From: Flavivirga amylovorans
GTDB taxonomy: Bacteria > Bacteroidota > Bacteroidia > Flavobacteriales > Flavobacteriaceae
DNA: 64,000 nucleotides
Assembly (NCBI RefSeq): GCF_030540875.1
Contig: NZ_JAUOEM010000003.1
Location: 372,001-436,000 of the forward strand
Direction of reading: 5' to 3'
The position numbers and the translations under genes are program-made. Position 1 is the first letter of the stretch. Each line of letters opens with the position of its first letter. Below the pieces are notes generated by a model, which searched no databases, was not told where the DNA came from, and saw nothing but the letters and a program-made list of their open reading frames with translations. Below are positions 20,797-43,699 of the stretch, in pieces.

Positions 20797-20850
20797 TTAT
20801 TTTGCTAGCTCTAATTTGCCTTAAAAATAGTTCTATTATTTAAGCTACTA

Positions 20851-24182: not shown

Positions 24183-24204
24183 TAGTTATGGTAGTTACTA
24201 AATA

Positions 24205-24381
24205 ATGCATTCAGCATTAGCAATTGTATGTTTTACGTGTATTGGCATACTTAATATAGGAAATGGAGGTGCATCTCCAAAAATATTGATCGATGTAGGT
24301 CGTGTACAAAGATTCTGGAATGATTTAAAAACAATGAACAAAAATGATGAACAGTTTAAAAAAGTAGACCGATATGATTAA
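24205..24381 (+). CDS. small hypothetical ORF, 58 aa
   Basis: Starts at ATG 24205 (MHSALAIVCFTCIGILNIG), with a hydrophobic N-terminus that could be a membrane segment or signal. Its stop overlaps the start of a second small ORF (24374). It resembles no known family. It may be a relic of a larger gene like its neighbour at 23825-24182. Confidence 0.25.
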   Translation: MHSALAIVCFTCIGILNIGNGGASPKILIDVGRVQRFWNDLKTMNKNDEQFKKVDRYD

Positions 24382-24499
24382 AGAATTTCCTTTTGGAATT
24401 TATAAAAAAAGTAAAGAAAGGGAAGTTATAGTAATGCGAGATGGTATGTTTTCCCTGTATATGTCAACTTGGAAAGATGTAAATGATTACCAATGTTAA
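24374..24499 (+). CDS. small hypothetical ORF, 41 aa, overlapping the previous one
   Basis: ATG at 24374 overlaps the end of the 58-aa ORF by 8 nt. The product begins MIKEFPFGIYKKSKEREVIV. It is unrecognised. The two frames may be pieces of one gene split by a frameshift. Confidence 0.22.
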   Translation: MIKEFPFGIYKKSKEREVIVMRDGMFSLYMSTWKDVNDYQC

Positions 24500-24563
24500 G
24501 TGTTTATGTCAAGCACTCTAGAATGGCTGATTAATTAAAACTACTATTATAAAGTATCCGCTT

Positions 24564-25487: not shown

Positions 25488-25690
25488 GTTATAAATTCGG
25501 TACTATTAAAAAATAAATGTGTTATTTTTTTAATTTTTGCTGGACGAATTTAGATAAAAATATTAAAATAACATGTTAATATACTGTTAGAGTCTTATGT
25601 AGTCGATTTATGACATAAAATTAATAAGCAAATTAAAATAGGGTAGGAAAAGATAGAAGTTACTTGTTATATTATTTTAAAAAGAAACAC

Positions 25691-25728
25691 TTTAGTACCA
25701 ATAAAGGTTGCTCACTTTAGGTACTAAA
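25691..25728. promoter_or_regulatory. 9-bp perfect inverted repeat upstream of the PKD/T9SS gene
   Basis: TTTAGTACC, a 20-nt spacer, then GGTACTAAA, ending 32 nt before the ATG at 25761. It could be a 5' UTR stem-loop or an operator. Nothing else is evident in 25488-25760. Confidence 0.35.
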
Positions 25729-25760
25729 TCAATCCCGAATCTATTAATCAAATAACAATT

Positions 25761-27611: not shown

Positions 27612-27874
27612 TTAACAGTTCACTAAATGGTACGTTTTTTTAACGGATTGTGTGTTAATAAAATGCTTAATTTAATAAATAAAGCATTTTATTGTGATTA
27701 AATTGTAGTTATTAGATTACAAATATATAATTGAGATTTGAAAAAAAACATACGTTTTGTCGATAAATTTTACCTTCAAAATCATTTCATCGTGTAATTT
27801 AAGAGTTCACATGATTTTTATTTTTTTATGAATTTAAAGACTTAATTTTATATAAATTATTAAGTTTTAGTGTT

Positions 27875-28507
27875 ATGAAAAATCTAATGTCCCTTTTTTG
27901 CTTCGTATGTTTTATAGGCTTTTCTCATACGATTATCGCTCAAGAATCTGCAAGTATATCAGATGAAATACCTGAAGATTACAAAAAACGTAGTCCTATT
28001 TATGACTATTCAGAAAAGCAATTGAATAATGTAGATACTATTCCAGATTATGCATCTAAAAAGAATAAGCTAAAAATTACTGGTACTATTTATGAAAATG
28101 ATGGTGTGACGCCAGCTAAGAATGTACTTCTTTTTATACATCATGCAGATGAGAATGGAAATTTTGAATTAAAAAGGCATAATAAAAAGCGTTATGTACG
28201 CCATAGAGGTTGGATACGAACAGATGAAGATGGTCATTATACCTTCTATACGTTTGTACCTGGTAAATATATATATGGTAATGAACTTAAACAGATTTTA
28301 CCAATAGTTAAAGAACCTGGTAAGCCTGAATACAAAATTGAAACATATCTTTTTGATGATGACCCATTATTAAATGATAAGCGTTCGAAAGTAAAACGAG
28401 CAGATGTTGCGAATAGAATTCTTAAACTTGACAAAAAAGAAGGTGTATTTGTAGCAAAAAGAGATATTGTTTTAGGCAAAGATATTATTGACTCTTATGC
28501 TGAATAA
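27875..28507 (+). CDS. exported intradiol-dioxygenase-like protein lacking metal ligands
   Basis: 210 aa with signal peptide (ends HTIIAQ). Residues ~65-170 follow the intradiol ring-cleavage dioxygenase C-terminal fold: KITGTIYENDGVTPAKNVLL, RHRGWIRTDEDGHYTFYTFVPGKY, VKEPGKPEYKIETYLFDDDPLL. In active enzymes iron is held by two Tyr and two His, the latter in an H-I-H strand. Here that strand reads QILPI, and the first Tyr position appears to be Phe (GNFEL). It is therefore probably not an iron enzyme but a binding or structural protein using the fold. A perfect terminator follows. Confidence 0.72.
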   Translation: MKNLMSLFCFVCFIGFSHTIIAQESASISDEIPEDYKKRSPIYDYSEKQLNNVDTIPDYASKKNKLKITGTIYENDGVTPAKNVLLFIHHADENGNFELKRHNKKRYVRHRGWIRTDEDGHYTFYTFVPGKYIYGNELKQILPIVKEPGKPEYKIETYLFDDDPLLNDKRSKVKRADVANRILKLDKKEGVFVAKRDIVLGKDIIDSYAE

Positions 28508-28559
28508 TGAATTTATACTTTGTAAAAAGATTTAAATAATTAGATATTTATTATAAAGG

Positions 28560-28586
28560 CCATCCTATAATTAGGATGGTTTTTTT
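28560..28586 (+). terminator. intrinsic terminator
   Basis: CCATCCT-ATAATT-AGGATGG followed by seven Ts, 53 nt after the stop of the intradiol-like gene. Confidence 0.9.
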
Positions 28587-28860
28587 ATGGAATATATTAG
28601 CACCTTTACTTTTAAGTTATCATGCTCTACTAATGTTTGTATACTTTAGGAAATAATAAAAGGGTATAGAATAAACACTTTTCATACAGTAATGAAGAGG
28701 AACATACGATGTTTAATAAACCGAAAATTCTAAAATATTTTTATTATATTTAAACCATCGCTTAAGCAATAAGTGATAAATCTCTCCCTATTAAATAATA
28801 ATACGGTTTACTATCTAGCATGATACCTTTAATAAGGTATTTTATTAAAGGATATGTTTA

Positions 28861-28941
28861 ATGAATTTTGCATTAGCAATTGTTATTGTTTGTGTATTAT
28901 TTATTAGAACGGTTATTAATTATATATACTTTGAATATTAA
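28861..28941 (+). CDS. small hydrophobic peptide, 26 aa
   Basis: ATG 28861, TAA 28939-28941, just 12 nt before the lipoprotein gene at 28954. The product is one hydrophobic helix (MNFALAIVIVCVLFIRTV) plus an aromatic tail. The position suggests an operon leader or membrane micropeptide, but chance is possible in AT-rich DNA. The stretch 28587-28860 has nothing else convincing. Confidence 0.25.
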   Translation: MNFALAIVIVCVLFIRTVINYIYFEY

Positions 28942-28953
28942 AATTATTTAAAA

Positions 28954-29301
28954 ATGAAACCATTTAAATATGTATCAATAGCTATTTGCTGTTGTGTTTT
29001 AACGTCTTGTTATTCCGTGAGATTTCGTAATGTGAATGGAGCACCACAGCCTGATCCGTTTTCAGACAGAGATGATTATTACAGAGGCATGGCAGTCGTA
29101 GAGTTTGACACTGTTATAGGTATAAGCGCCACTTCAAAAGATTTTACGTATTTAATCAAAGAAAAAGAAGCCTGCGAATCGGGAAAACTAAACATTATTG
29201 AATATCGCAACACCTTTGGAGGTGTCTTATTAAGTGCTATTACTTTTGGAAGAAAACGAAAAGTAAAAGTTAAGTATGTATGTGAAAAACTAACAAACTA
29301 A
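28954..29301 (+). CDS. Bor-like lipoprotein
   Basis: 115 aa with lipobox VLTSC. The mature part has the Bor/TRL-like layout: a short beta region, ACESGKLNIIEYRNTFGG, then a hydrophobic turn LLSAITFGRK and VKVKYVC at the end, with the conserved Cys pair. Bor is a phage-encoded outer-membrane lipoprotein, and chromosomal relatives have no defined role. It is followed after 5 nt by the FAD oxidase gene, so the two are likely cotranscribed. Confidence 0.65.
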   Translation: MKPFKYVSIAICCCVLTSCYSVRFRNVNGAPQPDPFSDRDDYYRGMAVVEFDTVIGISATSKDFTYLIKEKEACESGKLNIIEYRNTFGGVLLSAITFGRKRKVKVKYVCEKLTN

Positions 29302-29306
29302 GTATT

Positions 29307-30881
29307 ATGGCTACTACTAAAAGTAAATTCTTAAATGAATGGAATACATTACATAAAAATGGCCCATTTCCATTAAAAATTCTGTATCAGACCAAATTGG
29401 AAGGGGAGCGCGCCATGCCAAAAAAGTTAGATCGTTATAACGATGCAGCAAAAGAAATACAGCGTTTAATAGAAGAAACACATACCGCTGGAGAAGGATT
29501 TCGTGCTTATGGATCTGCATGGTCAATGAATAATATTGCCAGTCATAAAGATAGAATGCATTATAATGGTTTTATGAATATTTCTTTGCCTATAAATGCT
29601 AGTGATTGTCACGCTAATTCCAATTATGATGCGTCTAATCTATTTTTATTTGAATGTGGAACGACTATAAAAGAAGTTTCAGAGATTTTGGCAGAAAATG
29701 GAAAGTCTCTAAAAACAACTGGAGCAAGTAATGGTCAAACGTTAGCAGGTTGTATCTCTACTGGAGTACATGGTTCTGCTTTAGATGTTGGATCTGTACA
29801 AGATTATGTTGTGGGATTAAATTTAATAATAGGCCCTAATACAGAAGATATAGTATATATAGAACGAGATTCGAAACCCGTTTTAAGTAATGAGTTTGTT
29901 AATAAGTTAAATGCAAGAATTATAAGAGACGATGATTTATTTCATGCAGCCATGGTTGGATTAGGTGGTTTTGGTTTTATACATGGTATTGTTATAGAAG
30001 CAGAGCCCATTTTTTTACTCAAGCGCTATGTGAAAAAAATTAGTAAAACGACTGCTTATGAATTAGCAGAGACTATGGATTTTAAAAATGCGTCGTTCAC
30101 TATTCCAGAAGAAACAGATACCAGTGGAAAAGGAAATAGGCCGTATCATTATAAAATCTTTATTAATCAGTATAGTGATGATCCAGATTGTGTTGTGGAA
30201 TTAATGTATAAGAAACCATATATAGAACCTTATCCCGATCCATTTCCAGTAATTAAAGAATCTCTTTATAGAGATCTTATTTTTCTGTTTGTAAAGCTTG
30301 CAGAAAATTTACCTAAAAGTATTCCCTGGTTAGTAAAACGATTACGCAAAACTATTTTACCTAAGGTTGATGATCAAACAACGGGCATGTTAAAAGAAAT
30401 ATTTTGGGACGCACCTTATCAAGGTCCTGCTTTTGCTTGTTCTTTTGGAATAGATCATAAAGACGGACCAAAAGCTATGGAGCTACTGGGGAAATTGACC
30501 AGAGATGAAGGTCCCATACCAGGCATCTTTGCCATGCGATTTGTTAAACAATCTCAAGGGACTATAGCTTTTACCAGGTTCCCTATTACATGTATGATAG
30601 AAATTGATGGTGTACTTTGGAAAGAAACCAGAAAAATTATGAGCTTAAAGAAGTTTTCGAAACGAATGATAGAAGTTCTCCAAGGTAATAATATTCCGTT
30701 CACTTTGCATTGGGGTAAAAATAGTGATTGGACATTTCCTGGATTGGTAGAGTATATGTATGGAGATGATGCAAAGAAATGGATTCAACAACGCCAGTTA
30801 TTATTATCGGAGGATATGTACGAGCTATTTTCAAACAAGTTTTTAAAAACTACTGGTTTAGCTCCCAAAGCTATTACTTAA
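29307..30881 (+). CDS. FAD-linked (PCMH-type) oxidoreductase
   Basis: 524 aa. The N-terminal FAD-binding PCMH domain (~45-250) shows FRAYGSAWSMNNIA, the substrate-loop-like LFLFECGTTIKEVSEIL, and GASNGQTLAGCISTGVHGSALDVGSVQDYV, the pyrophosphate-binding region. The C-terminal cap (~270-524) resembles the sugar-lactone oxidase (ALO) group only loosely. Members oxidise sugars, lactones or alcohols with O2. There is no signal peptide. It follows the Bor-like lipoprotein gene by 5 nt. The substrate is unknown. Confidence 0.82.
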   Translation: MATTKSKFLNEWNTLHKNGPFPLKILYQTKLEGERAMPKKLDRYNDAAKEIQRLIEETHTAGEGFRAYGSAWSMNNIASHKDRMHYNGFMNISLPINASDCHANSNYDASNLFLFECGTTIKEVSEILAENGKSLKTTGASNGQTLAGCISTGVHGSALDVGSVQDYVVGLNLIIGPNTEDIVYIERDSKPVLSNEFVNKLNARIIRDDDLFHAAMVGLGGFGFIHGIVIEAEPIFLLKRYVKKISKTTAYELAETMDFKNASFTIPEETDTSGKGNRPYHYKIFINQYSDDPDCVVELMYKKPYIEPYPDPFPVIKESLYRDLIFLFVKLAENLPKSIPWLVKRLRKTILPKVDDQTTGMLKEIFWDAPYQGPAFACSFGIDHKDGPKAMELLGKLTRDEGPIPGIFAMRFVKQSQGTIAFTRFPITCMIEIDGVLWKETRKIMSLKKFSKRMIEVLQGNNIPFTLHWGKNSDWTFPGLVEYMYGDDAKKWIQQRQLLLSEDMYELFSNKFLKTTGLAPKAIT

Positions 30882-31060
30882 GCAGTTCGGTTTTATATGA
30901 TAATTATTTATGTGTTGATTTTCAATTATTTAACGAAATGTTAAGCAGCACTTAAAAAAAGCAAAGATTAATTGGTTTCCAACCTCCACAGGAATGCTTG
31001 CCAAAGTATTTGTACGCATAAATAACCTCATACGTTAGGTATATCATACAACTAATAAAA

Positions 31061-31825
31061 TCACTTCTTTTTCTTTTTGCTTTTTGGTAATACGTTGTTG
31101 TTTTTATGTAATACTTCCTCAGGAAAAGGAAAAAGAATGGTCGAATTTTTCTCTGCAGCAATATTAGACAACGTTTGGTATAGCCTTAGTTTTATGGCAG
31201 AGGGCGACTGATCTATCAATTTTCCTGCTTCAAGTAATTTTCCTGCAGCCTGTTCTTCTGCCTGTGCTAGTATGATACGTGCTCGCCTAGAACGCTCAGC
31301 TTCAGCTTGATTAGCCATCATACGTCGCATATTTTCAGGCAATTGGATGTCTTTAATTTTAACATCATTAATATGAATTCCCCATTCTTTGGTTTCAATT
31401 TCAACAATACTTTTTATATTTTTTCCTATCTCTTCGCGTTTTGATAAAATAGTATCGAGTTCTACTTTACCACAAACGTCTCTCAAAGCAGCTTGTGCCA
31501 GTTGAGTAATTGCAAATTTGTATTCTTCAACTTCAAGTACAGCTCGTTCTGGATCATCAATCTTAAAGAATAATACCCCATCGATACTACAAGGAACATT
31601 GTCTTCAGTCATCACTTCCTGTGACACAATATTAATGGTAATGACTCGAATATCTACTATTTGAATTGTTTCTACAATAGGAATAATCCATCTGAAACCT
31701 GGTTTTAAAGTCTTAACATATTTTCCAAATCTAAATTTAGGAGCTCTTTTATATTCATATATAATGCGTATTCCTGCTAATAAGAAAATAAGAACAATGA
31801 TGCTTAATATTTGTATTGAATTCAT
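31061..31825 (-). CDS. slipin (SPFH/stomatin-like) membrane protein
   Basis: 254 aa. An N-terminal membrane helix (ILSIIVLIFLLAGIRIIY) leads to the SPFH/Band 7 domain (~30-190; LKPGFRWIIPIVETIQIVDIR, ALRDVCGKVELDTILSKREEI), then a coiled segment (NQAEAERSRRARIILAQAEEQAAGKLLEA) and a Lys-rich tail (PKSKKKKK). These match bacterial slipins that form membrane microdomain scaffolds. Slipins often pair with an NfeD partner, but none is seen here. The gene is monocistronic. Confidence 0.93.
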   Translation of the reverse strand: MNSIQILSIIVLIFLLAGIRIIYEYKRAPKFRFGKYVKTLKPGFRWIIPIVETIQIVDIRVITINIVSQEVMTEDNVPCSIDGVLFFKIDDPERAVLEVEEYKFAITQLAQAALRDVCGKVELDTILSKREEIGKNIKSIVEIETKEWGIHINDVKIKDIQLPENMRRMMANQAEAERSRRARIILAQAEEQAAGKLLEAGKLIDQSPSAIKLRLYQTLSNIAAEKNSTILFPFPEEVLHKNNNVLPKSKKKKK

Positions 31826-32208
31826 AATTACAAAGTTTTAGAGATAAAGTCCAATCTGCAATTTGAGTCTCGATAACAGACTGTATTTATTAAGTTTTAA
31901 TATTAAATAAACACCTATAATATAGCACTTTAAGATACGAAAAATGTATAACATTTAAAAATAATGAGACCATTAACATTATAATAATTCATTTCTGTTT
32001 ACAACATATTAACCAAACATTTTTAGACGCTTGATAAATCTAGAAGTTAGGCTATGCAACTATAGAGGCCTATTTGTTAAAAACAGGAAAAACACCCTTT
32101 CGAAAAGGTGATTAAGCTTACATTTTGTATTTGTTATCGTATAATTTTACAATGTGATAACAATTTGATTTTTAGCATTTAATAACTCTAAAACAACTAA
32201 ATATAATT

Positions 32209-33279
32209 ATGAAAAGTAAAAAAAACTTACAATCGTTTTCGATTCTTGCAGGTATAATGATGATGGTACTTCTATCATCTTGCGAAAAAGACCCTGTTAC
32301 ATTAGCTTTACATGAGCCAATTCATCCTACAAGTAGTCAACAAGTAACATACAATCTTACAAAGGTGACCTCTGGAAGTATTAGCTCAGCAAAATTGTAT
32401 GAACAGGTAAATACAATTAATAGTAGTGGGACGATTACTTCAACGGGCTCAGATGTATTATTACAAACCTGGACAAGTCCTCCGGGTGATTTATCCTATA
32501 CAAAAAGTAGCGGACATGGATCAAATAAATTAATAAAATATCGTTGGGAAGTTACTACACCAGAGCAAAGTAAAACATTTGAAGTTACTTATGTAACGCG
32601 ACCGTATCCTGTAACAAATATGCCCGCTCCAGTATATTGTCAAGGAGATCCTGACGATGTTTTTGATGTCGTATTTATTCCAGACACAGATATTACAGTC
32701 ATGCCCGATTTTTATGATAATTGCCATGGCGCTATAGAAGAAGCCTTTTTTGATGAACCCCATACGAGGTTTTGGAGGCGTCAATATAATTTTTATATTA
32801 ATAAAGAAAAAGGTACAGCTACAGATTATGATGATATTGCCACAGACGGGACACATCAAGTGCCTTCAAACAATGCCAACCTAGCCTTTGCAGAAGGAAG
32901 GGTTTTAATGCATGAAAATAACTTGAGAGATTACGCTTCAGGAGGGTTGTTCTCTACAGAAATGCAAAATAGAGGAACTATTATGCATGAATCTGGACAT
33001 GCTCTATACGATCTTGCAGATGAGTATGGTAGCGGTGTACATTGGGAAGAAGCTGATTTTCCCAATAATTGGTCAACCTTAGCAGATGCTCAAGCTGCTG
33101 GTAGTAATTATGGGAGTTGTAAATCGTCTTCAGATGCTACAGAAATGGGAACTAGTGGATGGTATCATTTGTGTGTGTCTAATTGCCAGATGGTAACTTC
33201 TGGACTCAATCATACAACGTATGACTGTCCTTGTAAAACGAGAATTACATACACCGTACTTGATAACGCTATAAATTAA
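32209..33279 (+). CDS. M64-type (IgA peptidase-like) zinc metalloprotease lipoprotein
   Basis: 356 aa with lipobox VLLSSC. After an N-terminal beta domain (~30-130), the catalytic domain has VVFIPDTDITVMPDFYDNC and the zinc motif HESGHALYDLADEY (His260, Glu261, His264, with Asp/Glu further on). It is Cys-rich near the C-terminus (CKSSS, HLCVSNC, DCPCK). This matches the M64/IgA-peptidase group of Bacteroidota. It is surface or periplasm anchored. The next gene, 6 nt downstream, encodes an exported partner. Confidence 0.85.
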   Translation: MKSKKNLQSFSILAGIMMMVLLSSCEKDPVTLALHEPIHPTSSQQVTYNLTKVTSGSISSAKLYEQVNTINSSGTITSTGSDVLLQTWTSPPGDLSYTKSSGHGSNKLIKYRWEVTTPEQSKTFEVTYVTRPYPVTNMPAPVYCQGDPDDVFDVVFIPDTDITVMPDFYDNCHGAIEEAFFDEPHTRFWRRQYNFYINKEKGTATDYDDIATDGTHQVPSNNANLAFAEGRVLMHENNLRDYASGGLFSTEMQNRGTIMHESGHALYDLADEYGSGVHWEEADFPNNWSTLADAQAAGSNYGSCKSSSDATEMGTSGWYHLCVSNCQMVTSGLNHTTYDCPCKTRITYTVLDNAIN

Positions 33280-33285
33280 AATACT

Positions 33286-33798
33286 ATGAAAACTATATAT
33301 AAAATAGCATTAGTCTTTATGTGTCTAAATAATGTTTTAGCTATACAAGCTCAGGAAGGCAATGATAAAAAAAGAAAGCAAGCAGAGAAAAATACATCTC
33401 CATTTACAATAGATCATTTTTCGATACAAGAACAGTCCTTTTATGTTTTAACCGTTCATGTAACAGATGGAAATATTGTATTAGATGAGCGTGCTGTTTT
33501 AAAAGAAGTAGGGGGAAAGCTTCCGTATAAAAGAGGTAATTTTAATATCGAACTTTTAAACACAGAAGGTCGAGTTATTAGTAATTATAGTATACCAGAC
33601 CCCTTTTTAATCAGATCTTGTGAAGAAGGAAAAGATAACTATACATTTTTAAAAACAGGAACCGTTCAAATTCCTTTCCAAAAGTCTCAGGATATGTCAC
33701 GATTGCTTTTAACCAGAGATAAGCAAACTGTTGGGGATTTAGATCTTTCAAGGTTTATAAAAGGAAAAGATAATGAAGATGAAGAAAAACAAGATTAA
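33286..33798 (+). CDS. exported hypothetical protein paired with the M64 protease
   Basis: 170 aa with signal peptide (ends LAIQAQ). The mature protein is mostly beta (FYVLTVHVTDGNIVLDERAVLKEVGG) with a charged C-terminal tail. The 6-nt gap to the metalloprotease gene implies an operon. It could be a chaperone, inhibitor or substrate of the protease. The family is not recognised. Confidence 0.7.
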   Translation: MKTIYKIALVFMCLNNVLAIQAQEGNDKKRKQAEKNTSPFTIDHFSIQEQSFYVLTVHVTDGNIVLDERAVLKEVGGKLPYKRGNFNIELLNTEGRVISNYSIPDPFLIRSCEEGKDNYTFLKTGTVQIPFQKSQDMSRLLLTRDKQTVGDLDLSRFIKGKDNEDEEKQD

Positions 33799-34133
33799 TC
33801 TTTAGTATGTCGTAGCTATATAGTCACGTCATGTGTCTCAATTAATTATTTGTTCTTTGTAATGTTCAGCGTAACAATTTTTATCTGGCTGTAAGTATTT
33901 TTAAAAAGTCAACCAGTCTTATATCTATTGTATGCTGAACATCTAAGAATATTCTATACTTAACCCCAAACATTTACCATTTTAAATTGTACGTAATGAA
34001 ATACCTGAAAAGTAAATATTTTAAATAATTTTTATATATTTACAGTAATTACTTACATTAATAACAAATAAATTCTTCCATCTAAAATTTTGAATAGCAA
34101 ACTAAATTATATTAACTCTAAAATCAATTTATT

Positions 34134-34541
34134 TTGGGAAAACCTAAACAAACCCCTCCTTACAATTCCTTTATGCAAGAAGCAGGAGAAGTTAATCAAT
34201 CTTTAGCTAACGAAAGTTCAATTTTATCAGAAATTGCATCTGCTGAACCCGTTGTAATAAGCGAACTTTTATCTTCGGAACCTGCAATGATGGAAAAAAT
34301 ATTATCTGCTGAACCAACTATGCTATCAGAGATTGCCTCTGCAGAACCTACTATTCTTGGAGAATTACTAGTAGCAGAACCTGCACTATTTGCAGAAATA
34401 GCAACCGCAGAACCTGCAATGTTATCAGAGATAGCTGCTGCGGAGCCTGTTGTATTTTCTAAAATCGCCGCCGCAGAGCCTGTAGTTTTCGGAAAAGCAA
34501 TGGCTAGTGTCATTTCAGAAATAGCTAGCTTAAAAAAATAA
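34134..34541 (+). CDS. hendecad-repeat protein (8 x 11 residues), possible precursor or scaffold of the downstream cluster
   Basis: 135 aa from a TTG start at 34134; an alternative ATG lies at residue 14 (34173). Residues 32-119 are eight exact 11-residue repeats with Glu-Pro at fixed phase (38-39, 49-50 and so on to 115-116), consensus x-[LF]-S-E-I-A-[SA]-A-E-P-x. The N-terminal ~30 residues are non-repetitive (MGKPKQTPPYNSFMQEAGEV). There is no signal peptide. Eleven-residue periodicity suits a long amphipathic helix; alternatively, the repeats are cores of a modified peptide. It lies 104 nt upstream of the adenylating-enzyme operon. Confidence 0.65.
   Translation: MGKPKQTPPYNSFMQEAGEVNQSLANESSILSEIASAEPVVISELLSSEPAMMEKILSAEPTMLSEIASAEPTILGELLVAEPALFAEIATAEPAMLSEIAAAEPVVFSKIAAAEPVVFGKAMASVISEIASLKK
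34227..34490 (+). repeat. 33-bp tandem repeat array, 8 units, coding
   Basis: 264 nt = 8 x 33 nt, exactly in frame. Each unit encodes the Ser-Glu-...-Ala-Glu-Pro hendecad. Units diverged at synonymous and hydrophobic positions, so the array is old, not a recent slippage product. Confidence 0.85.
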
Positions 34542-34645
34542 CATATATACATTTTTAAACCATATTCTCTAGGTACTTAGTTTCTTAAAGTCAATTTTAT
34601 AAAAGGGTGCTTTGAGAATTTGGTTTTTTAAAATTAAGTTATCAG

Positions 34646-36112
34646 ATGGATGACCAAATATTGCTTACAGAAAAGCGTCATATCACTATGACTCCAGATA
34701 GATTTCTATCAAAAGTTAAAGAATTACCAGAAACTTTACAGCCAAAGGATATAGGATCAAATATTCTGGCTCCTTTGTTTTCATACATCATTACAGAACC
34801 AGTTAAGTACCGGGAAGGCTATAAATTACTTCAAAATAAGCTGTTGGATATTACTTTAAGAATGGCTAAAGAAAATGCTTCTTACTACACTGAAATAATA
34901 CCTAATGATGATAATTGGACCCTATCCAAACTAGATCAATTACCAACACTAAATAAAGAAGCACTTTATAACAACCGTTCAGGAGTTTTATCTGAAATCA
35001 CAACATTTGGTTTTGTGACTTTTACAACAGGAACCACAAACCAGCCACCATTATTAATTGAAAGGTCTCAGGAAGAACAATTATACCTCCAGAACTTTTT
35101 TTCAATCTTACAGTCGGGCATGTTGCATTCGGAAAAATTAAAACCTCTTGGAATTGTTGAAGGTTCTATGAATCATGGTTCCGTTTTAAGGTTACCTGGT
35201 ATTGGGTATAATTTTATGATTGAATTAACCAAAGACTATGGTGTTATTCGAACAGCCTGGCTATTACAAAACGAATTTAATTTTAAAGGCATAGAGCAAA
35301 AAGTTAGTCAATTAAATACAACCGTTATGGGATTGAGTTATTTATATCAATACTTAACAGAACAGAACATAGAAATTCCCCCCGACCAACTTAACGCCAT
35401 TACAATTTTTGGTTGGCCAGTCCCAAAAAGTAGACGCAAAAAATTTGAAATGTTTTTTAATGTGAAAATTAGTGATAATTATTCCATGTCTGAAATGTTT
35501 GGAGGCGCAAAATATTGTCAACAGTGCGATGGCTATCATTTTGACCCGTTTGTTATACCTGAAATAGTTGATTTAGAAACAGGCAAACAATTAGAAACGG
35601 GTACGGGAGAACTTGTTTTAACACCTCTTTTTCCTTTTACGCAGCGTTTTGTTTTAATACGCTATCGCACTGGCGACCTTGTTGATGTAGCTAAGGTAAG
35701 TTGTGATAAAGGCACACTCGTTTATACGTTTAGAGGACGACTAAAACGTTGTGTCAAGATGAATTCAAACTTATACTTTGGTGAAGCTGAAATAGCAAAA
35801 GCGATTGATGAGATTGAAGAGCTCAATAGGGCTCCTACTGGTTTTAGCATTTTTAAAGATAATAACAAAAACAATTGGCCATTGTTTAAAATGGTTAAGA
35901 ACGGAGAACAATTCGAAATTTTGTTTGAGCTAACATTTAATCCTCAAGAAGCCCCGAACAGATCTAATAAAGTTCTAAAAAAAATATATGACAAGATACT
36001 TTTTGAACTACCAGAATCAGTAATTAATTGGATACAAGAACACCCTAAAAATTTTAAAATAACCTTAAAAGCACCATCTAGTTTCGAGAAAAGAGACTAT
36101 TGGAATTTATAA
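34646..36112 (+). CDS. PaaK/CapK-like AMP-forming adenylating enzyme
   Basis: 488 aa. ANL-superfamily core motifs are visible: the P-loop-like FTTGTTNQPP (~135), the A5-type DNYSMSEMFG, the A7-type YRTGDLVDV and the hinge FRGRLKRCVKMN. These enzymes activate a carboxylic acid as an acyl-AMP and may transfer it to CoA or another acceptor. The sequence is closest in style to phenylacetate-CoA ligase and coenzyme F390 synthetase. It is the first enzyme of a five-gene, tightly spaced operon (34.6-39.4 kb). The substrate is unknown. Confidence 0.85.
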   Translation: MDDQILLTEKRHITMTPDRFLSKVKELPETLQPKDIGSNILAPLFSYIITEPVKYREGYKLLQNKLLDITLRMAKENASYYTEIIPNDDNWTLSKLDQLPTLNKEALYNNRSGVLSEITTFGFVTFTTGTTNQPPLLIERSQEEQLYLQNFFSILQSGMLHSEKLKPLGIVEGSMNHGSVLRLPGIGYNFMIELTKDYGVIRTAWLLQNEFNFKGIEQKVSQLNTTVMGLSYLYQYLTEQNIEIPPDQLNAITIFGWPVPKSRRKKFEMFFNVKISDNYSMSEMFGGAKYCQQCDGYHFDPFVIPEIVDLETGKQLETGTGELVLTPLFPFTQRFVLIRYRTGDLVDVAKVSCDKGTLVYTFRGRLKRCVKMNSNLYFGEAEIAKAIDEIEELNRAPTGFSIFKDNNKNNWPLFKMVKNGEQFEILFELTFNPQEAPNRSNKVLKKIYDKILFELPESVINWIQEHPKNFKITLKAPSSFEKRDYWNL

Positions 36113-36126
36113 CTAAACAAAATATT

Positions 36127-36846
36127 ATGACGACACAAACAGTTAATGACACTTTAAAAGAAGAACCAATTGTAAAAGGAAAAAGTAAGTACTTATATAA
36201 TTACGATAATGATCATTATATAGCACAGTTAATCCCTTCATTATCAAGTTTTACGTATGATAGGTATGAGATGGTTGAAAAAACCCAAAATCTACGCTTA
36301 GACTTTTATGAAATGGCTGTGGCATTGCTAAACAAACATGATATTCCTACAGCATTTGTTAAACGGTTGGATGTGGATAAATATTTAACAAGAAAATGTA
36401 CAAGCCCTCCTTTTGAAGTGATTGTTAAAAATAATGCTGTTGGATCTACACAAAGAAAATATCCAGGGCTTTTCCCAGATAATCATAAGTTTTCAACGCC
36501 TATAGTAAAATTTGATTATAGAATTGATCCTGAGGATATTCCTATTTCCGCAGACTATTTAAAAGCTTATGGTGAAGATCCAGATTTATTAAAAAAGTTA
36601 GCTTTAAAAACAAATGAAATCTTATGCGAATGGTTATCTCCCAATGTTTTAATAGATTTTTGTTTGATTTTTGGAACCAATAGTGATGGACAGGTTTGTA
36701 TCACTTCAGAAATATCACCAGACTGCATGCGATTAAAATCTGAAGATGGATCATCTTTAGACAAAGACTTATTTAGGCAAGGTAAAAGTCATGAAGAGAT
36801 TATTGATACCTGGACGCAGCTTATAGCTGATATAAAAACAAAATAA
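36127..36846 (+). CDS. short PurC (SAICAR synthetase)-like ATP-dependent ligase, probably not housekeeping
   Basis: 239 aa from ATG 36127; an in-frame TTG at 36100 would overlap the previous gene. The SAICAR-synthetase fold is clear: VKGKSKYLYNYDNDHYIAQ at the N-terminus, PPFEVIVKNNAVGSTQRKYPG, VLIDFCLIFG, and the hallmark SEISPDCMRLKS followed by LDKDLFRQG. PurC joins a carboxylate to the amine of Asp using ATP. The housekeeping Flavobacteriaceae enzyme is longer and differs in sequence, and there are no other purine genes here. In an operon with an adenylating enzyme, SDR, HAD and kinase, it probably makes an amide bond in a special metabolite or peptide. Confidence 0.83.
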   Translation: MTTQTVNDTLKEEPIVKGKSKYLYNYDNDHYIAQLIPSLSSFTYDRYEMVEKTQNLRLDFYEMAVALLNKHDIPTAFVKRLDVDKYLTRKCTSPPFEVIVKNNAVGSTQRKYPGLFPDNHKFSTPIVKFDYRIDPEDIPISADYLKAYGEDPDLLKKLALKTNEILCEWLSPNVLIDFCLIFGTNSDGQVCITSEISPDCMRLKSEDGSSLDKDLFRQGKSHEEIIDTWTQLIADIKTK

Positions 36847-37538
36847 TGAGTAAAAAAGTATTGTTAATTACGGGTTCAAACCGCGGTGCAGGTTATGGAA
36901 TTGCTAAATATTTTTATGATCAGGGGTATGACATAATATCATTAAACAGAACATTAAAAAATGAAGCATGGCTAGGAGAAATAGAGTGCGATCTCAGCCA
37001 GTCTGACCAAATAATTGATATATGCCAGGATATGGTTATGAAATCTGTAAACATTGATGTTTGTATATTAAACGCAGCGGTTAGAAAATTATCATTTATA
37101 GAAGACATGTCTTATAAAGATTGGGAAGACTCAGTCGCCACTAATTATTCGGCAGTTTTTTATATACTAAAATCGCTTTTACCTATCTTTAAAACCTCTA
37201 AAACTTATGTAGCTGTTATTGGAAGTCATGCTGCCACACATTATTTTGATGGGGGCGTGGCATATTGTAGTACTAAAGCGGCATTAAAAGCCATGGTTGA
37301 AGTATTTATTCAAGAAACCAGAGACTATGGAATCAGAACAACTTTAATAAATGCTGGAGCAATTAATAACAGACCAAAAGGGAATGATGATAAAAAATTA
37401 CAGCCAGAAAGTATAGGTAAATGTATTTTCTCGCTAGTAAACTCTAATTCTGATGTTCTTTTTGGAGAGATGGAAATTCGTCCTTCAATACCAATAAAAC
37501 CAAATGAGTCAGGAATAAGTAAATTGCAATATGTATAA
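36846..37538 (+). CDS. short-chain dehydrogenase/reductase (SDR)
   Basis: 230 aa, NAD(P)-dependent. The Rossmann glycine motif TGSNRGAGYGIA is at residues 9-20, the NAA motif is at LNAAVRK, and the catalytic Tyr-Lys lies in YCSTKAALK with the upstream Ser in IGSHAA. Its ATG overlaps the PurC-like stop by one base (TAATG). It oxidises or reduces a carbonyl/alcohol, and the substrate is set by the cluster, which is unknown. Confidence 0.88.
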   Translation: MSKKVLLITGSNRGAGYGIAKYFYDQGYDIISLNRTLKNEAWLGEIECDLSQSDQIIDICQDMVMKSVNIDVCILNAAVRKLSFIEDMSYKDWEDSVATNYSAVFYILKSLLPIFKTSKTYVAVIGSHAATHYFDGGVAYCSTKAALKAMVEVFIQETRDYGIRTTLINAGAINNRPKGNDDKKLQPESIGKCIFSLVNSNSDVLFGEMEIRPSIPIKPNESGISKLQYV

Positions 37539-38403
37539 ACAGTCAAATTTTTCTAATACTATTTTTTATTCTGATCTAGATGGCACATTATTAAACAATA
37601 AGGCCAGGTTAGCTCCAAAATGTTGTACAAACCTTAAACGATTAATAGATGAAGGACTCATGTTTAGTGTCGCGAGTGCTAGAAATTTGACTACGATTCG
37701 AGATATGTTAAACGGAATACATTTAAGCTTACCAGTTATTAGTTTGAATGGCGCATATATCTCAGATATTAATAAAATGCAGCACATTCAAATTAATAGT
37801 ATTGAAAAAGATATTAAAGAAAATCTTTCTGAGTACATTCAAAAAAATAATCTAGGCGTCTTTATTTCAAATCATCAAAATAATAAAGATGGTATTTTAT
37901 ATTATGGATTAAAAAATTATGGAGAGCAGTGGTATTTAAAGGATCGACAAAACTGTAGAAATCAATTTTTAATGACTTCAGATAAATTATCTGAAGTCAT
38001 TAAAAGTGAAATCACCTGTTTTACATTTATAGATAGAAAGGAAAATTTAGAGGTTTTAAAGCGCTTTATTCTTGAGCATTACAATCACGGAGTAAAGACA
38101 CATTTGTTTGAAAATCAATATTCAAAAGGCTGGTTTTGGCTTACAGTACATAGTAACTTAGCAACTAAATCTACTGCGCTTCAGTTTATAAAAAATACTT
38201 ATGGGTATACGGATAAACTTTTAACAGTATTTGGAGACGGTATTAATGATACAGAAATGTTTGAGTTAGCAGATATGGCAATTTCTGTAGATAATGCTAT
38301 CCCTGCTATTAAAGAAAAATCGGATTTTGTTATCGGGAGCAATGAAGCGGGTAGTGTTGTCAATTATCTTAACCAACTAAAAAAGCAATCCGTTGAACTC
38401 TAG
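37531..38403 (+). CDS. Cof-type HAD-IIB phosphatase
   Basis: 290 aa. HAD motif I is YSDLDGTLL (residues ~12-20), followed by motif II SVASARN, a C2B cap domain (~85-200), the motif III Lys in TKSTALQF, and motif IV FGDGINDTEMF. Members dephosphorylate sugar phosphates or phosphorylated metabolites. It overlaps the SDR gene by 8 nt and the kinase gene by 11 nt. The HAD phosphatase and kinase in one operon could act as a protect/deprotect or phosphorylate/dephosphorylate pair. Confidence 0.9.
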   Translation: MYKQSNFSNTIFYSDLDGTLLNNKARLAPKCCTNLKRLIDEGLMFSVASARNLTTIRDMLNGIHLSLPVISLNGAYISDINKMQHIQINSIEKDIKENLSEYIQKNNLGVFISNHQNNKDGILYYGLKNYGEQWYLKDRQNCRNQFLMTSDKLSEVIKSEITCFTFIDRKENLEVLKRFILEHYNHGVKTHLFENQYSKGWFWLTVHSNLATKSTALQFIKNTYGYTDKLLTVFGDGINDTEMFELADMAISVDNAIPAIKEKSDFVIGSNEAGSVVNYLNQLKKQSVEL

Positions 38404-39388
38404 TCAAATCATTAATTTATGCCTTTCGGAGGAGTTGCAACAAAAATATGCCTATCAAAGAACAATAGAAACGCATATTTCTTGGATTCTATTATGCAAA
38501 GAGTATGCATTCAAAATTAAAAAACCACTCAAGCTTAAATTTCTTGATTATTCAGAAGTATCAAAAAGAGAATTCTATTGTAAAAGAGAGTTAAGTTTAA
38601 ATGATCGATTTGCACCAAATGTATACTTAAACGTACTGCCTATTAATAATTACCAAAATCAATTCAAACTAGAGGGTACTCATGGTAGTGTCGTAGATTA
38701 TGCTGTCATGATGAAGCGGTTAGATGATGCCTCTTTGCTTTCTAATCGTATTAAAAATGATACATTAAAAGAATTAGATATATTAAATCTTTCTACATAT
38801 ATCTATAAGATTCATAAAGCAGCTAATATTTGCTCAGGTTTTAGTACTAGTAAATTAGAAGAAAGATTAAATCAAGTTTTAGAGTTAAAAGATATTATTC
38901 GTGAAAAAATTGGAAATGCAGGAGTATACTTTACACAAGAAATTATTACAACATCCAGTCGTTTTTTAAAAATATATAAGGAGCTCTTCAAAAACAGAAT
39001 TGAACAGAACTATATAAGGAATGTTCATGGTGATTTGCATTTTGATAATATTTTTATAGACGATCAAGACATTGTATTAATCGACTGTATAGAATTTGAA
39101 GACAGTTATTCCCAAATTGATTTGCTAGACGATGTAGCATCTATATTAGTAGATTTTGATTTCTATAAAAGACCAAATGATGCCGTAAAATTTATGAATC
39201 TATACGTGTCATATTACGATAATAGTAAATCGATAAACCAGGCTTTATTAAACTATTATAAAATGCAGCGATCGGTTACAAGGTTTAGTGTCTGTCTCTT
39301 AAAGGATGATAAAGAAAGCTTGGTTAATGCAAAAAAATATCAAGCCTTAATGAAGCAATACAAAGACCTAATCTGTAAAGCGTTTTGA
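38393..39388 (+). CDS. aminoglycoside phosphotransferase-like kinase (COG2187 N-terminal type)
   Basis: 331 aa. It resembles the kinase half of the bifunctional COG2187 proteins: YAFKIKKPLKLKFLDYSEVSKREFYCKREL (nucleotide-binding region), VHGDLHFDNIFID (catalytic loop HGDLHxxN) and IVLIDCIEFEDSYSQIDLLDDVASILVDF (metal-binding Asp). The AAA half is absent. The start is TTG at 38393, overlapping the HAD gene. It probably phosphorylates a small molecule made by the cluster, or confers self-resistance. It is the last gene of the operon. Confidence 0.85.
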   Translation: MNSSQIINLCLSEELQQKYAYQRTIETHISWILLCKEYAFKIKKPLKLKFLDYSEVSKREFYCKRELSLNDRFAPNVYLNVLPINNYQNQFKLEGTHGSVVDYAVMMKRLDDASLLSNRIKNDTLKELDILNLSTYIYKIHKAANICSGFSTSKLEERLNQVLELKDIIREKIGNAGVYFTQEIITTSSRFLKIYKELFKNRIEQNYIRNVHGDLHFDNIFIDDQDIVLIDCIEFEDSYSQIDLLDDVASILVDFDFYKRPNDAVKFMNLYVSYYDNSKSINQALLNYYKMQRSVTRFSVCLLKDDKESLVNAKKYQALMKQYKDLICKAF

Positions 39389-39591
39389 GCTATTAAATTA
39401 TCTAATAAATTAAAAATAAAGCAATTACATTTATTTATATTATTTAAAACTTTAATGTAGATAGAATGCGCTCTAGATAGGATGCACCAGTTCTTACTTT
39501 GTTTTATTACAGAAAATTATAAGTTTTTAACAACAAGCGTTTTAGAATATTTTGTAACTTAGAAATTGTTTAATTTCTGAATTACAATGAG

Positions 39592-40146
39592 ATGAAATCT
39601 ACATATATTATTTTCGGAATTGCTTTCATGTTTTTCTCTTGTAAAGCATCAAAATCTACTGCAACTCAAGCAGAAATAGATTTTCTTAATACTGTTGTGA
39701 AAAAGCAGATGTTCACCATTAAGTCAGATTGGGCATATCCACAAGTAACAAATGCGTTGCAGCAAGTTCTTAATTCTGGATTAATGCAACCAGGAAGCAG
39801 TGCAAGTGCTATTTCTTTAATTGGAAATTATAATTTTTTAACCATATCTAAAGATAGTGTTTCGTCTTTTTTACCATATTTTGGAGAAAGGCAGATGCAA
39901 GTTGCTTATAATGGAGGAGATAGTGCCATACAATTTGATGGAATTCTAGAAGACTATAAAGCGATTCTGAATAAGGATAATAGCTATGCCATTTCGTTTC
40001 AAGCAAGAAGTAAATCTGAAGGTTTTCAAGTGTTTATTAAAATATCGCCCAGTTTAGAGACAAATATGACTGTAAACGGTATGTCTAGATTTCCAATTAA
40101 TTACTCTGGTAATTTAGAATTAATAGATGAAGATATAGCTAAATAA
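39592..40146 (+). CDS. DUF4251 lipoprotein
   Basis: 184 aa with lipobox FFSC. The mature part follows DUF4251: residues ~55-175 with ISLIGNYNFLTISKDSVSSFLPYFGERQ and the final PINYSGNLELIDED. It is probably an outer-membrane or periplasmic lipoprotein of unknown function, widespread in Bacteroidota. It is monocistronic, followed by two hairpin terminators. Confidence 0.85.
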   Translation: MKSTYIIFGIAFMFFSCKASKSTATQAEIDFLNTVVKKQMFTIKSDWAYPQVTNALQQVLNSGLMQPGSSASAISLIGNYNFLTISKDSVSSFLPYFGERQMQVAYNGGDSAIQFDGILEDYKAILNKDNSYAISFQARSKSEGFQVFIKISPSLETNMTVNGMSRFPINYSGNLELIDEDIAK

Positions 40147-40885: not shown

Positions 40886-43699
40886 ATGAGAAAATTTTTA
40901 CGAAATTTAGAATTTATTACAAGAAGCTTTATCATTATTGTTGCACTTATAGGTGTTACACTTAATGGTATATCTCAAGAACAAATCATTAAAATTTCTA
41001 ATGAAGGAACAACAACATCACAGAATGAAAAGGATGATGTGCCTGTTAATAATAAGGAATTATTAAGAAGTGAATTAAAGTTTAAACAGAATGACAAATT
41101 AATACCTGTAAGATCTGTAATTGATAATTATGGAAAGCACGAAAAGTTCCAATATTATTATAAAGGTATTAAAGTACAGGGTGTCATTGCTACAGTGCAT
41201 ACTAAGAATGGCAAAGCCACCGAAATCTCCACAAATTATAAGCAAATACCAGAAATAGATGTGAAAGCGTCAGTTTCTGCTAAGAATGCACTACAATCTG
41301 CAAAAGAAAAACTTAGTTTTAAAACTATAGACTTAATCTCTAAAGAATTAATTGTTCTACCCATTGATCCAGAACAAAACATATGGAAATTAGCCTATAA
41401 TTTACATATTAAAGGAGCTAATTTTGATGAAGACGTTAATGTTTACATTGATGCAAAAACAGGAGACCTCATTAAAATAATTAGTAAAATAAAACATTTA
41501 GGAACGTATAGTCATGCAAATAGGCATAGCAAAAGTACAGATGCTAATAATACATTAAAACAGAAAAGCTTTGTTGATCTAGCAAAACAAGAAAAATTAG
41601 GCCCTCTAGCACCAGCAACTGGAACACTTGCTACTAGATATAGTGGAACACTTAGCTTAACAACAGATAGTTTTCAAGGTCAATATAGATTACGAGATTA
41701 TTCAAGAGGTAGCGGAATAATTAATTATAATAACGCTTCTTCAGGTCAGTTTCTGCAGTATATTGATTATACAGATAGTAATAACGATTGGACGCTTGCA
41801 GAACACGATAATGCTACGAAGGATAACGCTGCTTTTGATGCGCTTTTTGCTTCTCAGGTTACTTATGATTATTTTTTAAACGAACACGGTAGGAATAGTT
41901 ACGATGGGTCAGGCTCTGTGATAACTAATTTTGTAAATATACTTAATTATCAGAATGCAGGATGGAGTTCTGGAAATATGCTTTATGGTGATGGTATTTT
42001 CGGCTCAGACCCGTTAACCTCTCTTGATGTTGGTGCTCATGAAATGGGTCATGGCGTTACCGAATTTACAGCTAATTTAGATTACGAAAGAGAACAAGGC
42101 GGAATAAATGAGTCGTTAAGTGATATTTGGGCAATGAGTGTAGAGCACTACGCCAATATAAATTATGGACTTAATAAAGATCTTGACTTATTAGGGAATG
42201 ACTTTGGGTATACGCTAAGATCAATGGCAAACCCAAAAGCATATGGACAACCAGACACTTATAGAGGAACAAATTGGGTTGCAGCTACTGTTTCAGAAGG
42301 GTGTAGCGTTCCTCAAGGTGGAGCAGGAGGTAATGACTATTGTGGCGTACACACCAATAGCGGAGTAGGTAATTTTTGGTATTACACGCTTACATTGGGA
42401 GGTTCAGGGATAAATGATAATGCAGATAGTTACTCAGTAACAGCTATTGGTATTGATAAAGGCGGGAATATTGTTTATGCTTCACTTCAATATTTAACAC
42501 CTACCTCTCAATATGCAGACTTTAGAGCTGCGACCATTCAGGCTGCACAAGACCTATACGGAGCAGATTCACAAGAAGAAATTCAAGTAACTAATGCGTG
42601 GTACGCAGTTGGAGTTGGTGCTGCTTATTCTGGCAATACAGGAGATACACAAGCGCCAACGGTACCTACAGGGCTTACTTCTTCTAATATTACAGCTTCT
42701 GGTTTTGATATGTCATGGAATGCTTCAACAGATAACGTTGAAGTGACAGAATATGAGGTGTTTATAGATGGTGCAAGTAGTGGTTTAACGACAACAACAT
42801 CCTATACTGCTTCTGGTTTAAATAATAACACAACATATGCCGTAACTGTAATTGCAAAAGATGCTGCGGGTAATCAATCTGGTTTAAGCAATTCAATAGA
42901 TGTAACGACATTGCAAGGTAATGGTGGAGGTTGTACGAATGCAACATACAATTCGGATGATTTCGAGGGAGGGTTCTTTTCAAGTATTTGGAATGATGGA
43001 GGATCTGATGCCAGAATAAGTACAAGTGATCAAGCGTTCGCTAATTCCGGAATTCGATGTGTTAGGCTTAGAGATGATCAAAACAGTGCAAATATCACTA
43101 CAGATAATCTTGATTTATCATCATTTGAAGAACTTACAGTTACTTTTAGTTACATTACTGCTGGTTTAGAAAATGGAGAAGGTTTTTCATTACAAATTTC
43201 TACTAATGGAGGGGCTTCTTTTAATTTAGAAGAATCCTGGACTCGTGGAAATGAGTTTGCTTCTAATAACTCTAGGCAAAGTGGTACAGCAACAATTTCT
43301 GGCCCATTTACAAGTACAACCAAATTAAGATTCAAGCACAATGCAAGTATAAATAATGATAGAAGTTATTTAGATGATGTTGTGATTGAAGGCTGTTCAA
43401 ATGGAACTTCAAATATTATCGCGTCTAATAATGTAAATAATTTTACAGAGACTAGTATTGAAGAATCAAAACCTGCTATAGAAAGCATTAAGGCATATCC
43501 AATTCCTGTAAACCAAATTTTGAATATTAAAAACGTTCCAGTAAAAAGTAATTTAAAATTACTAAGTATTTCTGGGCAGTTGCTTATAGAGGCAAAAGGG
43601 GAATCTCAAATAGATATGTCTGGATTTAAAACGGGAATCTATATATTACAGATTAATACAGAAGAGCAAACTAAATTCATTAAAGTTGTTAAGAAATAG
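40886..43699 (+). CDS. M4 family (thermolysin-like) metalloprotease with FN3 and T9SS sorting domain
   Basis: 937 aa. Order: signal peptide (~1-31), FTP/PepSY propeptide (~50-200), M4 catalytic domain (~240-575) with zinc site HEMGH (His385, Glu386, His389) and third ligand Glu in GGINESLSDIWA, an FN3 domain (~588-680), a C-terminal MAM-like beta domain (~685-860), and a T9SS sorting domain (IKAYPIPVNQILNIKNV to GIYILQINTEEQTKFIKVVKK). It is secreted by T9SS and self-processed, and degrades proteins outside the cell. The gene stands alone with a terminator after it. Confidence 0.94.
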   Translation: MRKFLRNLEFITRSFIIIVALIGVTLNGISQEQIIKISNEGTTTSQNEKDDVPVNNKELLRSELKFKQNDKLIPVRSVIDNYGKHEKFQYYYKGIKVQGVIATVHTKNGKATEISTNYKQIPEIDVKASVSAKNALQSAKEKLSFKTIDLISKELIVLPIDPEQNIWKLAYNLHIKGANFDEDVNVYIDAKTGDLIKIISKIKHLGTYSHANRHSKSTDANNTLKQKSFVDLAKQEKLGPLAPATGTLATRYSGTLSLTTDSFQGQYRLRDYSRGSGIINYNNASSGQFLQYIDYTDSNNDWTLAEHDNATKDNAAFDALFASQVTYDYFLNEHGRNSYDGSGSVITNFVNILNYQNAGWSSGNMLYGDGIFGSDPLTSLDVGAHEMGHGVTEFTANLDYEREQGGINESLSDIWAMSVEHYANINYGLNKDLDLLGNDFGYTLRSMANPKAYGQPDTYRGTNWVAATVSEGCSVPQGGAGGNDYCGVHTNSGVGNFWYYTLTLGGSGINDNADSYSVTAIGIDKGGNIVYASLQYLTPTSQYADFRAATIQAAQDLYGADSQEEIQVTNAWYAVGVGAAYSGNTGDTQAPTVPTGLTSSNITASGFDMSWNASTDNVEVTEYEVFIDGASSGLTTTTSYTASGLNNNTTYAVTVIAKDAAGNQSGLSNSIDVTTLQGNGGGCTNATYNSDDFEGGFFSSIWNDGGSDARISTSDQAFANSGIRCVRLRDDQNSANITTDNLDLSSFEELTVTFSYITAGLENGEGFSLQISTNGGASFNLEESWTRGNEFASNNSRQSGTATISGPFTSTTKLRFKHNASINNDRSYLDDVVIEGCSNGTSNIIASNNVNNFTETSIEESKPAIESIKAYPIPVNQILNIKNVPVKSNLKLLSISGQLLIEAKGESQIDMSGFKTGIYILQINTEEQTKFIKVVKK

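Follow-up and report, generated by a model that had tools for sequence, protein, structure and literature searches.

A putative purine-antimetabolite cassette with a glutamate-array protein in Flavivirga amylovorans

What does a small protein made of 11-residue repeats do at the head of an operon whose other genes encode enzymes? The question arises from the 64,000-nucleotide (nt) stretch of Flavivirga amylovorans DNA analysed here (contig NZ_JAUOEM010000003.1, positions 372,001 to 436,000; hereafter the window), in which six open reading frames (ORFs) lie head to tail on the + strand at 34134-39388, tightly packed and all present where an initial annotation had claimed an operon. We hold it to be a tentative but real possibility that this cassette encodes a horizontally moving purine-antimetabolite pathway of the pentostatin/coformycin type, in which the repeat protein is an array of glutamates (Glu) serving as a carrier that is loaded by the neighbouring ligase. 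This reading draws on the gene content and conservation of the cassette, on the pattern of Glu residues in the small protein, and on the recurrence of a Glu-rich repeat protein together with a related ligase beside unrelated purine-analogue genes.

Gene content of the cassette

34134..34541, + strand: Glu-repeat (hendecad) protein, 135 residues, TTG start, proposed carrier/substrate (66-92% identity in four relatives; Glu pattern; ratio of nonsynonymous to synonymous substitution rates, dN/dS)
34542..34645, + strand: intergenic hairpin, possible terminator/attenuator favouring an excess of the small protein (folding z -3.64)
34646..36112, + strand: PaaK-like adenylate-forming ligase, 488 residues (weak NCBIfam PaaK-superfamily matches; PDB 4r1l)
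36127..36846, + strand: PurC-like (SAICAR synthetase family) enzyme, 239 residues, paralogue of the housekeeping PurC (PF01259)
36846..37538, + strand: SDR oxidoreductase, 230 residues, PenB-like role proposed (adh_short; YxxxK motif)
37531..38403, + strand: HAD-IIB (Cof-type) phosphatase, 290 residues (Hydrolase_3; 5/5 cassettes)
38393..39388, + strand: APH-like small-molecule kinase, 331 residues (sub-cut-off TCAD9 and APH matches; 4/5 cassettes)

Between the end of the repeat gene at 34541 and the start of the ligase gene at 34646 lie 104 nt; ligase and PurC-like genes are separated by +14 nt (taking as the start the ATG at 36127, which relatives favour), and the later genes overlap, by 1 nt (PurC-like/SDR), 8 nt (SDR/HAD) and 11 nt (HAD/kinase). 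Five such cassettes are known: those of the window, Flavivirga rizhaonensis, an uncultured Flavobacteriaceae, Snuella sedimenti and Aureisphaera galaxeae. The repeat gene, the ligase and the PurC-like, SDR and HAD genes occur together in all five, which bears out the description of the locus as a biosynthetic operon; absence of the repeat gene from beside the enzymes in relatives, which the initial annotation had named as the finding that would tell against it, was checked for, and the gene is present in every copy. The kinase gene is found in 4/5 cassettes and, being missing from that of Aureisphaera, is dispensable to the set; the self-resistance that the initial annotation suggested for the kinase/phosphatase pair would be a speculative role. 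A HisG-like gene is found in 1/5. Housekeeping purine synthesis was rejected as the identity of the locus, because the genome carries its own separate purC on another contig (C9); the SAICAR-synthetase homologue at 36127-36846 is distinct from that housekeeping PurC.

The ligase has no Pfam match at E<=0.1, and its NCBIfam matches fall well under their cut-offs (DVU1553_fam_AMP, 78.5 bits against 300; PaaK TIGR02155, 39.1 bits against 646.3), the latter so far that phenylacetate-CoA ligase proper was discarded as its identity; its structural-database match is PDB 4r1l (E 1e-14). The named PaaK-superfamily matches from NCBIfam include BagE/FevW and DdaG, synthetases or ligases with partners other than CoA; these PaaK relatives couple acids straight to amines or hydroxyls. 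The PurC-like enzyme matches PF01259 (SAICAR_synt; 99.5 bits, E 3e-28) and retains the GKSK/GKGR-type loop and the SPDxMRL and LDKDxFR stretches. We nevertheless rejected it as a SAICAR synthetase proper, because it scores 61 bits on TIGR00081 (cut-off 189.9) and carries altered residues in VDxKxEFG, which becomes (I/V)DFCLIFG, and in the DEI-PD stretch, where DEISPD becomes SEISPD (first D to S); given these changes, its chemistry may differ from that of SAICAR synthetase. The SDR gene adjoins the PurC-like gene in 5/5 cassettes, and its product (adh_short, 95 bits, E 5e-27) has the YxxxK motif, is 66-91% identical in the relatives and lies under every curated NCBIfam cut-off among the best 25 of 204 families. 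The phosphatase matches Hydrolase_3 (157 bits, E 1e-45). Matches of the kinase to TCAD9 (28.0 bits, cut-off 40) and APH (20.0 bits, cut-off 23.2) are both weak, and its dN is the highest among the six genes between the window and F. rizhaonensis.

The statement in the initial annotation that no described system has this combination has to be corrected, because a SAICAR-synthetase homologue, an SDR and a HisG homologue form the pentostatin core described in a 2025 review (PMC12648386) and one cassette, that of Aureisphaera, holds a HisG-like gene. According to that text, pentostatin clusters encode PenA (HisG homologue), PenB (an SDR, acting in the last step) and PenC (SAICAR-synthase homologue), the function of PenC being called unclear (PMC12648386); adechlorin clusters hold the SAICAR synthetase gene adeA and two hisG homologues, adeC and adeL, that fail to rescue a hisG mutant (PMC13055916). 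The Aureisphaera HisG-like gene lies between the ligase and PurC-like genes, 16 nt from the former and overlapping the latter by 4 nt, and its product passes PF01634 (54 bits, cut-off 25.5) and falls under TIGR00070 (61 bits, cut-off 75.75). By family, the flavobacterial set thus shares with the pentostatin core a PurC-like enzyme and an SDR always, and a HisG-like enzyme in Aureisphaera. Like the pen/cof/ade clusters of Actinomycetota, it places a SAICAR-synthetase homologue next to an SDR in a small operon (with a HisG homologue in the Aureisphaera copy); unlike them, it adds a Glu-repeat protein and a PaaK-like ligase, lacks HisG in 4/5 copies and includes no second nucleoside pathway among its genes, and the likeness is one of family names.

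The Glu-repeat protein and its counterparts on rhizobial plasmids

The hendecad repeat proposed in the initial annotation is not a chance pattern: eight Glu-Pro pairs (residues 38, 49, 60, 71, 82, 93, 104 and 115) stand at exact 11-residue intervals, and purifying selection acts on the gene. Its dN/dS (NG86) between the window and F. rizhaonensis is 0.048 at a dS of 0.96; against the other relatives it is 0.075-0.086 at a dS of about 1.9 or above, including 0.080 against the uncultured Flavobacteriaceae, where a dS of 1.85 is near saturation. The window protein is 66-92% identical to its four relatives, and among the five copies the residue kept most strictly is Glu (17/19 invariant), ahead of Ala (15/23), Pro (8/11), Ser (4/17), Leu (3/12) and Val (0/9). 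From residue 33 to 104 the Glu residues are spaced 5 or 6 apart. The start codon is TTG in 3/5 copies, aligned with an ATG in Snuella and Aureisphaera, and the C termini read SLKK, SSKK, SSKN, TSKK and IAKP. Membership of a known peptide-precursor (RiPP; ribosomally synthesized and post-translationally modified peptide) or defence family was rejected, as only chance-level, sub-cut-off matches (Slx4, 0.013; TIGR03252, 0.086) and no PADLOC match were found. Compared with 200 dinucleotide shuffles, the gap behind the repeat gene folds better in the window (z -3.64), F. rizhaonensis (z -5.57) and the uncultured Flavobacteriaceae (z -4.23), and insignificantly so in Snuella (z -0.60) and Aureisphaera (z -1.01); a terminator or attenuator favouring the small protein is therefore plausible for the first three loci only.

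A search of 72,556 plasmid records with the ligase gave 15 matches. On Rhizobium leguminosarum plasmid pRL23b2, a ligase 28% identical to the flavobacterial one over 314 residues lies 92 nt behind a gene for an 88-residue protein with Glu at positions 30, 34, 38 and so on to 78. Downstream of this ligase come genes for an S8 peptidase, FolE, a PurA-like protein and PurB, and adjoining these are QueE, an IMP-dehydrogenase-family gene, nitrile hydratase alpha, QueC, a HAD gene, a phosphoribosyltransferase-domain gene and 6-carboxytetrahydropterin synthase. The region (19471-31151 of this conjugative plasmid) holds an apparent sangivamycin/7-deazapurine-type nucleoside set with the Glu-repeat protein, ligase and peptidase. 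A Mesorhizobium plasmid encodes a ligase 26% identical to the flavobacterial one, behind a gene for a small protein of 83 residues, in which Glu stands at 32, 36 and so on to 72, and near this ligase lie a beta-RFAP-synthase-family GHMP gene, an S8 peptidase, PurC and PurH; a beta-RFAP-synthase-family gene is present in Aminobacter too. This formycin/pyrazofurin-like set with the module occupies 19309-27242 of the plasmid of Mesorhizobium sp. L-2-11, and its first part is near-identical in the Aminobacter plasmid. The gene contents of the R. leguminosarum and Mesorhizobium neighbourhoods resemble the toyocamycin/sangivamycin and formycin/pyrazofurin pathways, from which they differ in adding the small Glu-repeat protein, the PaaK-like ligase and the S8 peptidase.

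All 4/4 records examined combine small protein, ligase and S8 peptidase (six more from R. leguminosarum are left out of this count). The two R. leguminosarum records have a small-protein accession in common, and the ligases of the other two, from Mesorhizobium and Aminobacter, are 99.8% identical. The rhizobial small proteins are 52-57% Ala/Ser/Glu with Glu every 4 residues, and their C termini are not common to the flavobacterial proteins. Over nine cassette and plasmid loci, the Ala+Glu+Ser fraction of the upstream small protein is 0.42-0.57 (a measure picked after the sequences had been seen, with an Azospirillum locus left out of the scan), and control ligase loci of Bacteroides, Halobaculum and Streptomyces show no comparable small protein (upstream ORF <=0.31). 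We did not count as a case the Roseibium aggregatum ligase locus, whose 75-residue acidic upstream ORF has a fraction of only 0.28, nor relatives of the S8 peptidase in Paenibacillus and Calothrix, which have no annotated ligase alongside; this comparison covered those two genera and left out a Nonomuraea relative. On the Roseibium plasmid (4899-21347), ADP-heptose, radical SAM and phytanoyl-CoA dioxygenase-family genes lie near the related PaaK-like ligase, the acidic ORF being directly upstream (6685-6912 in a separate locus extract). In a 13-row tree (with one long-branched paralogue from the window's genome, the only one of five intended paralogues to pass the filter), ligases of flavobacteria, rhizobia, Roseibium and Streptomyces are separated from that paralogue and from the three rows of ordinary PaaK type (support 92/94). 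The precursor role that the initial annotation had suggested for the repeat protein is strengthened, as a suggestion, by the Glu conservation and by this plasmid parallel.

A carrier model and its competitors

From these contents we infer a pathway, with its individual reactions and attachment chemistry, as follows. The starting substrate would be an adenine nucleotide, acted on by an enzyme of the HisG type (encoded within the cassette in Aureisphaera and perhaps supplied by the host's HisG in the others); the PurC-like enzyme would make or rearrange a C-N bond, the SDR would reduce a ketone, and the HAD enzyme and the kinase would remove and add phosphate, respectively. The PaaK-like ligase would activate the regularly spaced Glu carboxylates of the repeat protein as acyl-AMP and join them to the nucleoside as amide or ester, so that many warheads could be stored, protected or matured on each repeat protein until a peptidase, presumably the S8 enzyme in the rhizobial versions, frees the loaded nucleosides. 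A small protein with spaced Glu and a PaaK-like ligase recur beside three purine-analogue gene sets, and loading of Glu would be the simplest role common to these ligases. More doubtful, and in our judgement unlikely as it stands, is the wider proposal that these loci reflect an undescribed general strategy, in which a small repeat protein, loaded by a PaaK-like ligase, would bear purine-antimetabolite nucleosides bound covalently to its Glu side chains during their synthesis or storage, the carrier-ligase module being paired with at least three unrelated chemistries: 1,3-diazepine (flavobacteria), 7-deazapurine (Rhizobium) and C-nucleoside (Mesorhizobium/Aminobacter).

The main rival keeps the purine-analogue pathway and makes the repeat protein a non-covalent, acidic helical scaffold that holds the enzymes or sequesters a toxic nucleoside, with the ligase coupling a small acid to the nucleoside. 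Regular helical repeats are typical of scaffolds, the hydrophobic positions of the 11-mers are mostly swapped for other hydrophobics, and most of the PaaK superfamily activates small acids; yet the strictest conservation falls on Glu and not on the hydrophobic positions, Glu at every fourth residue in the Ala/Ser/Glu-rich rhizobial proteins would wind round all faces of a helix, and an S8 peptidase stands nearby in each of the four rhizobial-type records. We consider a scaffold unlikely, if well worth keeping in view. Rather improbable, in our assessment, is a non-nucleoside amide metabolite, for which the ligase would activate an acid, the PurC-like enzyme form the amide and the SDR reduce it, the Aureisphaera HisG-like gene being incidental. 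The SDR and HAD families are generic enough for this, the HisG-like gene is confined to one cassette, and residues of the PurC-like enzyme are changed around the conserved K-x-E; against it, the HisG-like gene sits inside the Aureisphaera operon at the short distances given above, and related ligases elsewhere lie in clear purine-analogue clusters.

Dispensing with a free nucleoside altogether, a RiPP-type system would treat the repeat protein as a multi-core precursor whose 11-mers are excised and decorated. The repeats do resemble multi-core precursors, and a small gene comes first, followed by a gap with a strong hairpin in 3/5 loci. In family scans, however, none of the six proteins matched a peptidase or any family known to modify RiPPs, no obvious cleavage motif divides the 11-residue repeats, and enzymes of the PurC, HisG, QueC, PurH and beta-RFAP types generally act on nucleotides or phosphoribosyl compounds; we think this system improbable. 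We give very little credence to a protective role inside the cell, such as a nucleotide analogue directed at phage, in place of an exported antibiotic: PADLOC returned no match for any of the six proteins, none of them is a sensor or regulator, and no close relative occurs in the phage or viral collections searched, even though the six genes include no transporter and the cassette occupies a variable chromosomal spot between SPFH and DUF4251 genes.

The carrier model for a purine antimetabolite must itself be held against several observations, which keep our confidence in it below an even balance. On the pathway side, the HisG-like gene is limited to the Aureisphaera cassette, and the window's genome and that of Snuella show one HisG each, scoring as ordinary; kinship of the cassette enzymes with PenB and PenC is argued from family names, and the PurC, SDR and HAD families are generic; loss of conserved K, E and D from the PurC-like enzyme may have altered or abolished its reaction; and the six cassette genes of the window include neither a transporter nor genes for a partner ('protege') nucleoside such as penD-J. 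On the module side, the four rhizobial-type records amount to two independent cases only, the repeat proteins differ in period (11 in flavobacteria, 4 in rhizobia) without convincing homology between them, and the grouping of flavobacterial with rhizobial ligases is only moderately supported, 92/94 not reaching the level set for a firm branch. No peptidase is encoded in the flavobacterial cassettes, and relatives of the rhizobial S8 peptidase (E<=1e-5) were found in none of the genomes of the window, Aureisphaera and Snuella, in a search run without a positive control.

Distribution, precedents and significance

The cassette is rare in the samples searched (overlapping sets of family, class and phylum genomes, at strict thresholds). 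Relatives of the PurC-like enzyme (E<=1e-20) occur in 3/199 family genomes, counting the window's, and the ligase profile (E<=1e-25) found the same three among 397 of the family; the window's genome alone was returned among 395 of the phylum (ligase profile, E<=1e-30) and among 395 of the class (PurC-like profile, E<=1e-35). A single-pass scan of GTDB r220 contigs with two peptide patterns returned five loci, namely four cassettes and a 28% match in Vulcanisaeta. The cassette is absent in 2/2 other listed genomes of the genus: one keeps the order of the SPFH, DUF4251 and M4-protease region with five other ORFs replacing the cassette, and the other has the SPFH and DUF4251 genes adjacent, in changed order and without it. 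The flanks in the window match those in F. rizhaonensis, and the SPFH and DUF4251 neighbours are the same in the uncultured Flavobacteriaceae; those of Snuella and Aureisphaera differ, except for a 32% DUF4251 relative in Snuella. From the differing flanks and the cassette-less sites in the genus, the cassette, found at a variable chromosomal place, appears to move between genera. Carriage by phage or virus was rejected: viral contigs held no relatives of the PurC-like enzyme or of the flavobacterial or rhizobial ligase, phage PurC matches of about 30% look like ordinary PurC, and the rhizobial ligase had one short phage match (19% covered). Plasmid searches with the PurC-like, HisG-like and SDR proteins gave distant homologues only.

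The slot between the SPFH/Band 7 and DUF4251 genes (window 31061-40146) varies in content across genomes of the genus, as an insertion spot. The ORF at 32209-33279, also in this slot, encodes a lipoprotein-like product that carries an HExxH-type motif (HESGHALYDLADEYG), passes no Pfam cut-off and seems to resemble an M64-type peptidase; a search for empty sites with this protein as query gave no matches in four genomes. Elsewhere in the window, a thermolysin-family (M4) protease with a type IX secretion tail lies downstream of the cassette (40886-43699), with nothing to tie it to the cassette, and a Chondroitinase-B-family protein, also with a type IX secretion tail, is encoded at 21750-23510.

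Carriage of small molecules on ribosomal peptides has precedents. LysW/AmCP amino-group carriers are small acidic proteins in which one C-terminal Glu carries the intermediate, loaded by a LysX-type ATP-grasp ligase. The proposed role of the cassette's repeat protein is alike in that a small acidic protein would carry an intermediate on Glu side chains; it differs in having many internal Glu residues and a PaaK-like ligase, and we found no conserved C-terminal Glu motif in the cassette and no ATP-grasp match among the family hits of its six proteins. Pearlins, the products of PEARL (peptide aminoacyl-tRNA ligase) systems, are likewise small molecules assembled on a ribosomal carrier peptide, which is cleaved afterwards (PMC9303977); PEARLs draw on aminoacyl-tRNA and work at the C-terminal end of the peptide (PMC11962472). 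The cassette departs from these in its PaaK-like ligase, in the absence of any PEARL match in family scans of the six proteins, and in C termini that flavobacterial and rhizobial small proteins do not have in common.

A search of the open-licence PubMed Central literature (subscription papers being outside its scope) found, among the papers listed, no description of a module of Glu-repeat protein and PaaK-like ligase, and Rhizobium goes unmentioned in the accessible part of the pentostatin review (PMC12648386). The pathway core varies an already known theme; should the repeat protein indeed be a carrier, the Glu-carrier module would count as a new kind of system. If real, it would also offer a clear test of the role of the SAICAR-synthetase-like enzyme, which that review calls unclear for PenC (PMC12648386). 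If the module is real, a small Glu-repeat gene followed by the ligase could be used as a search probe for purine analogues, and drugs of the pentostatin and sangivamycin kind would have relatives, outside Actinomycetota, that are made or stored on a protein.

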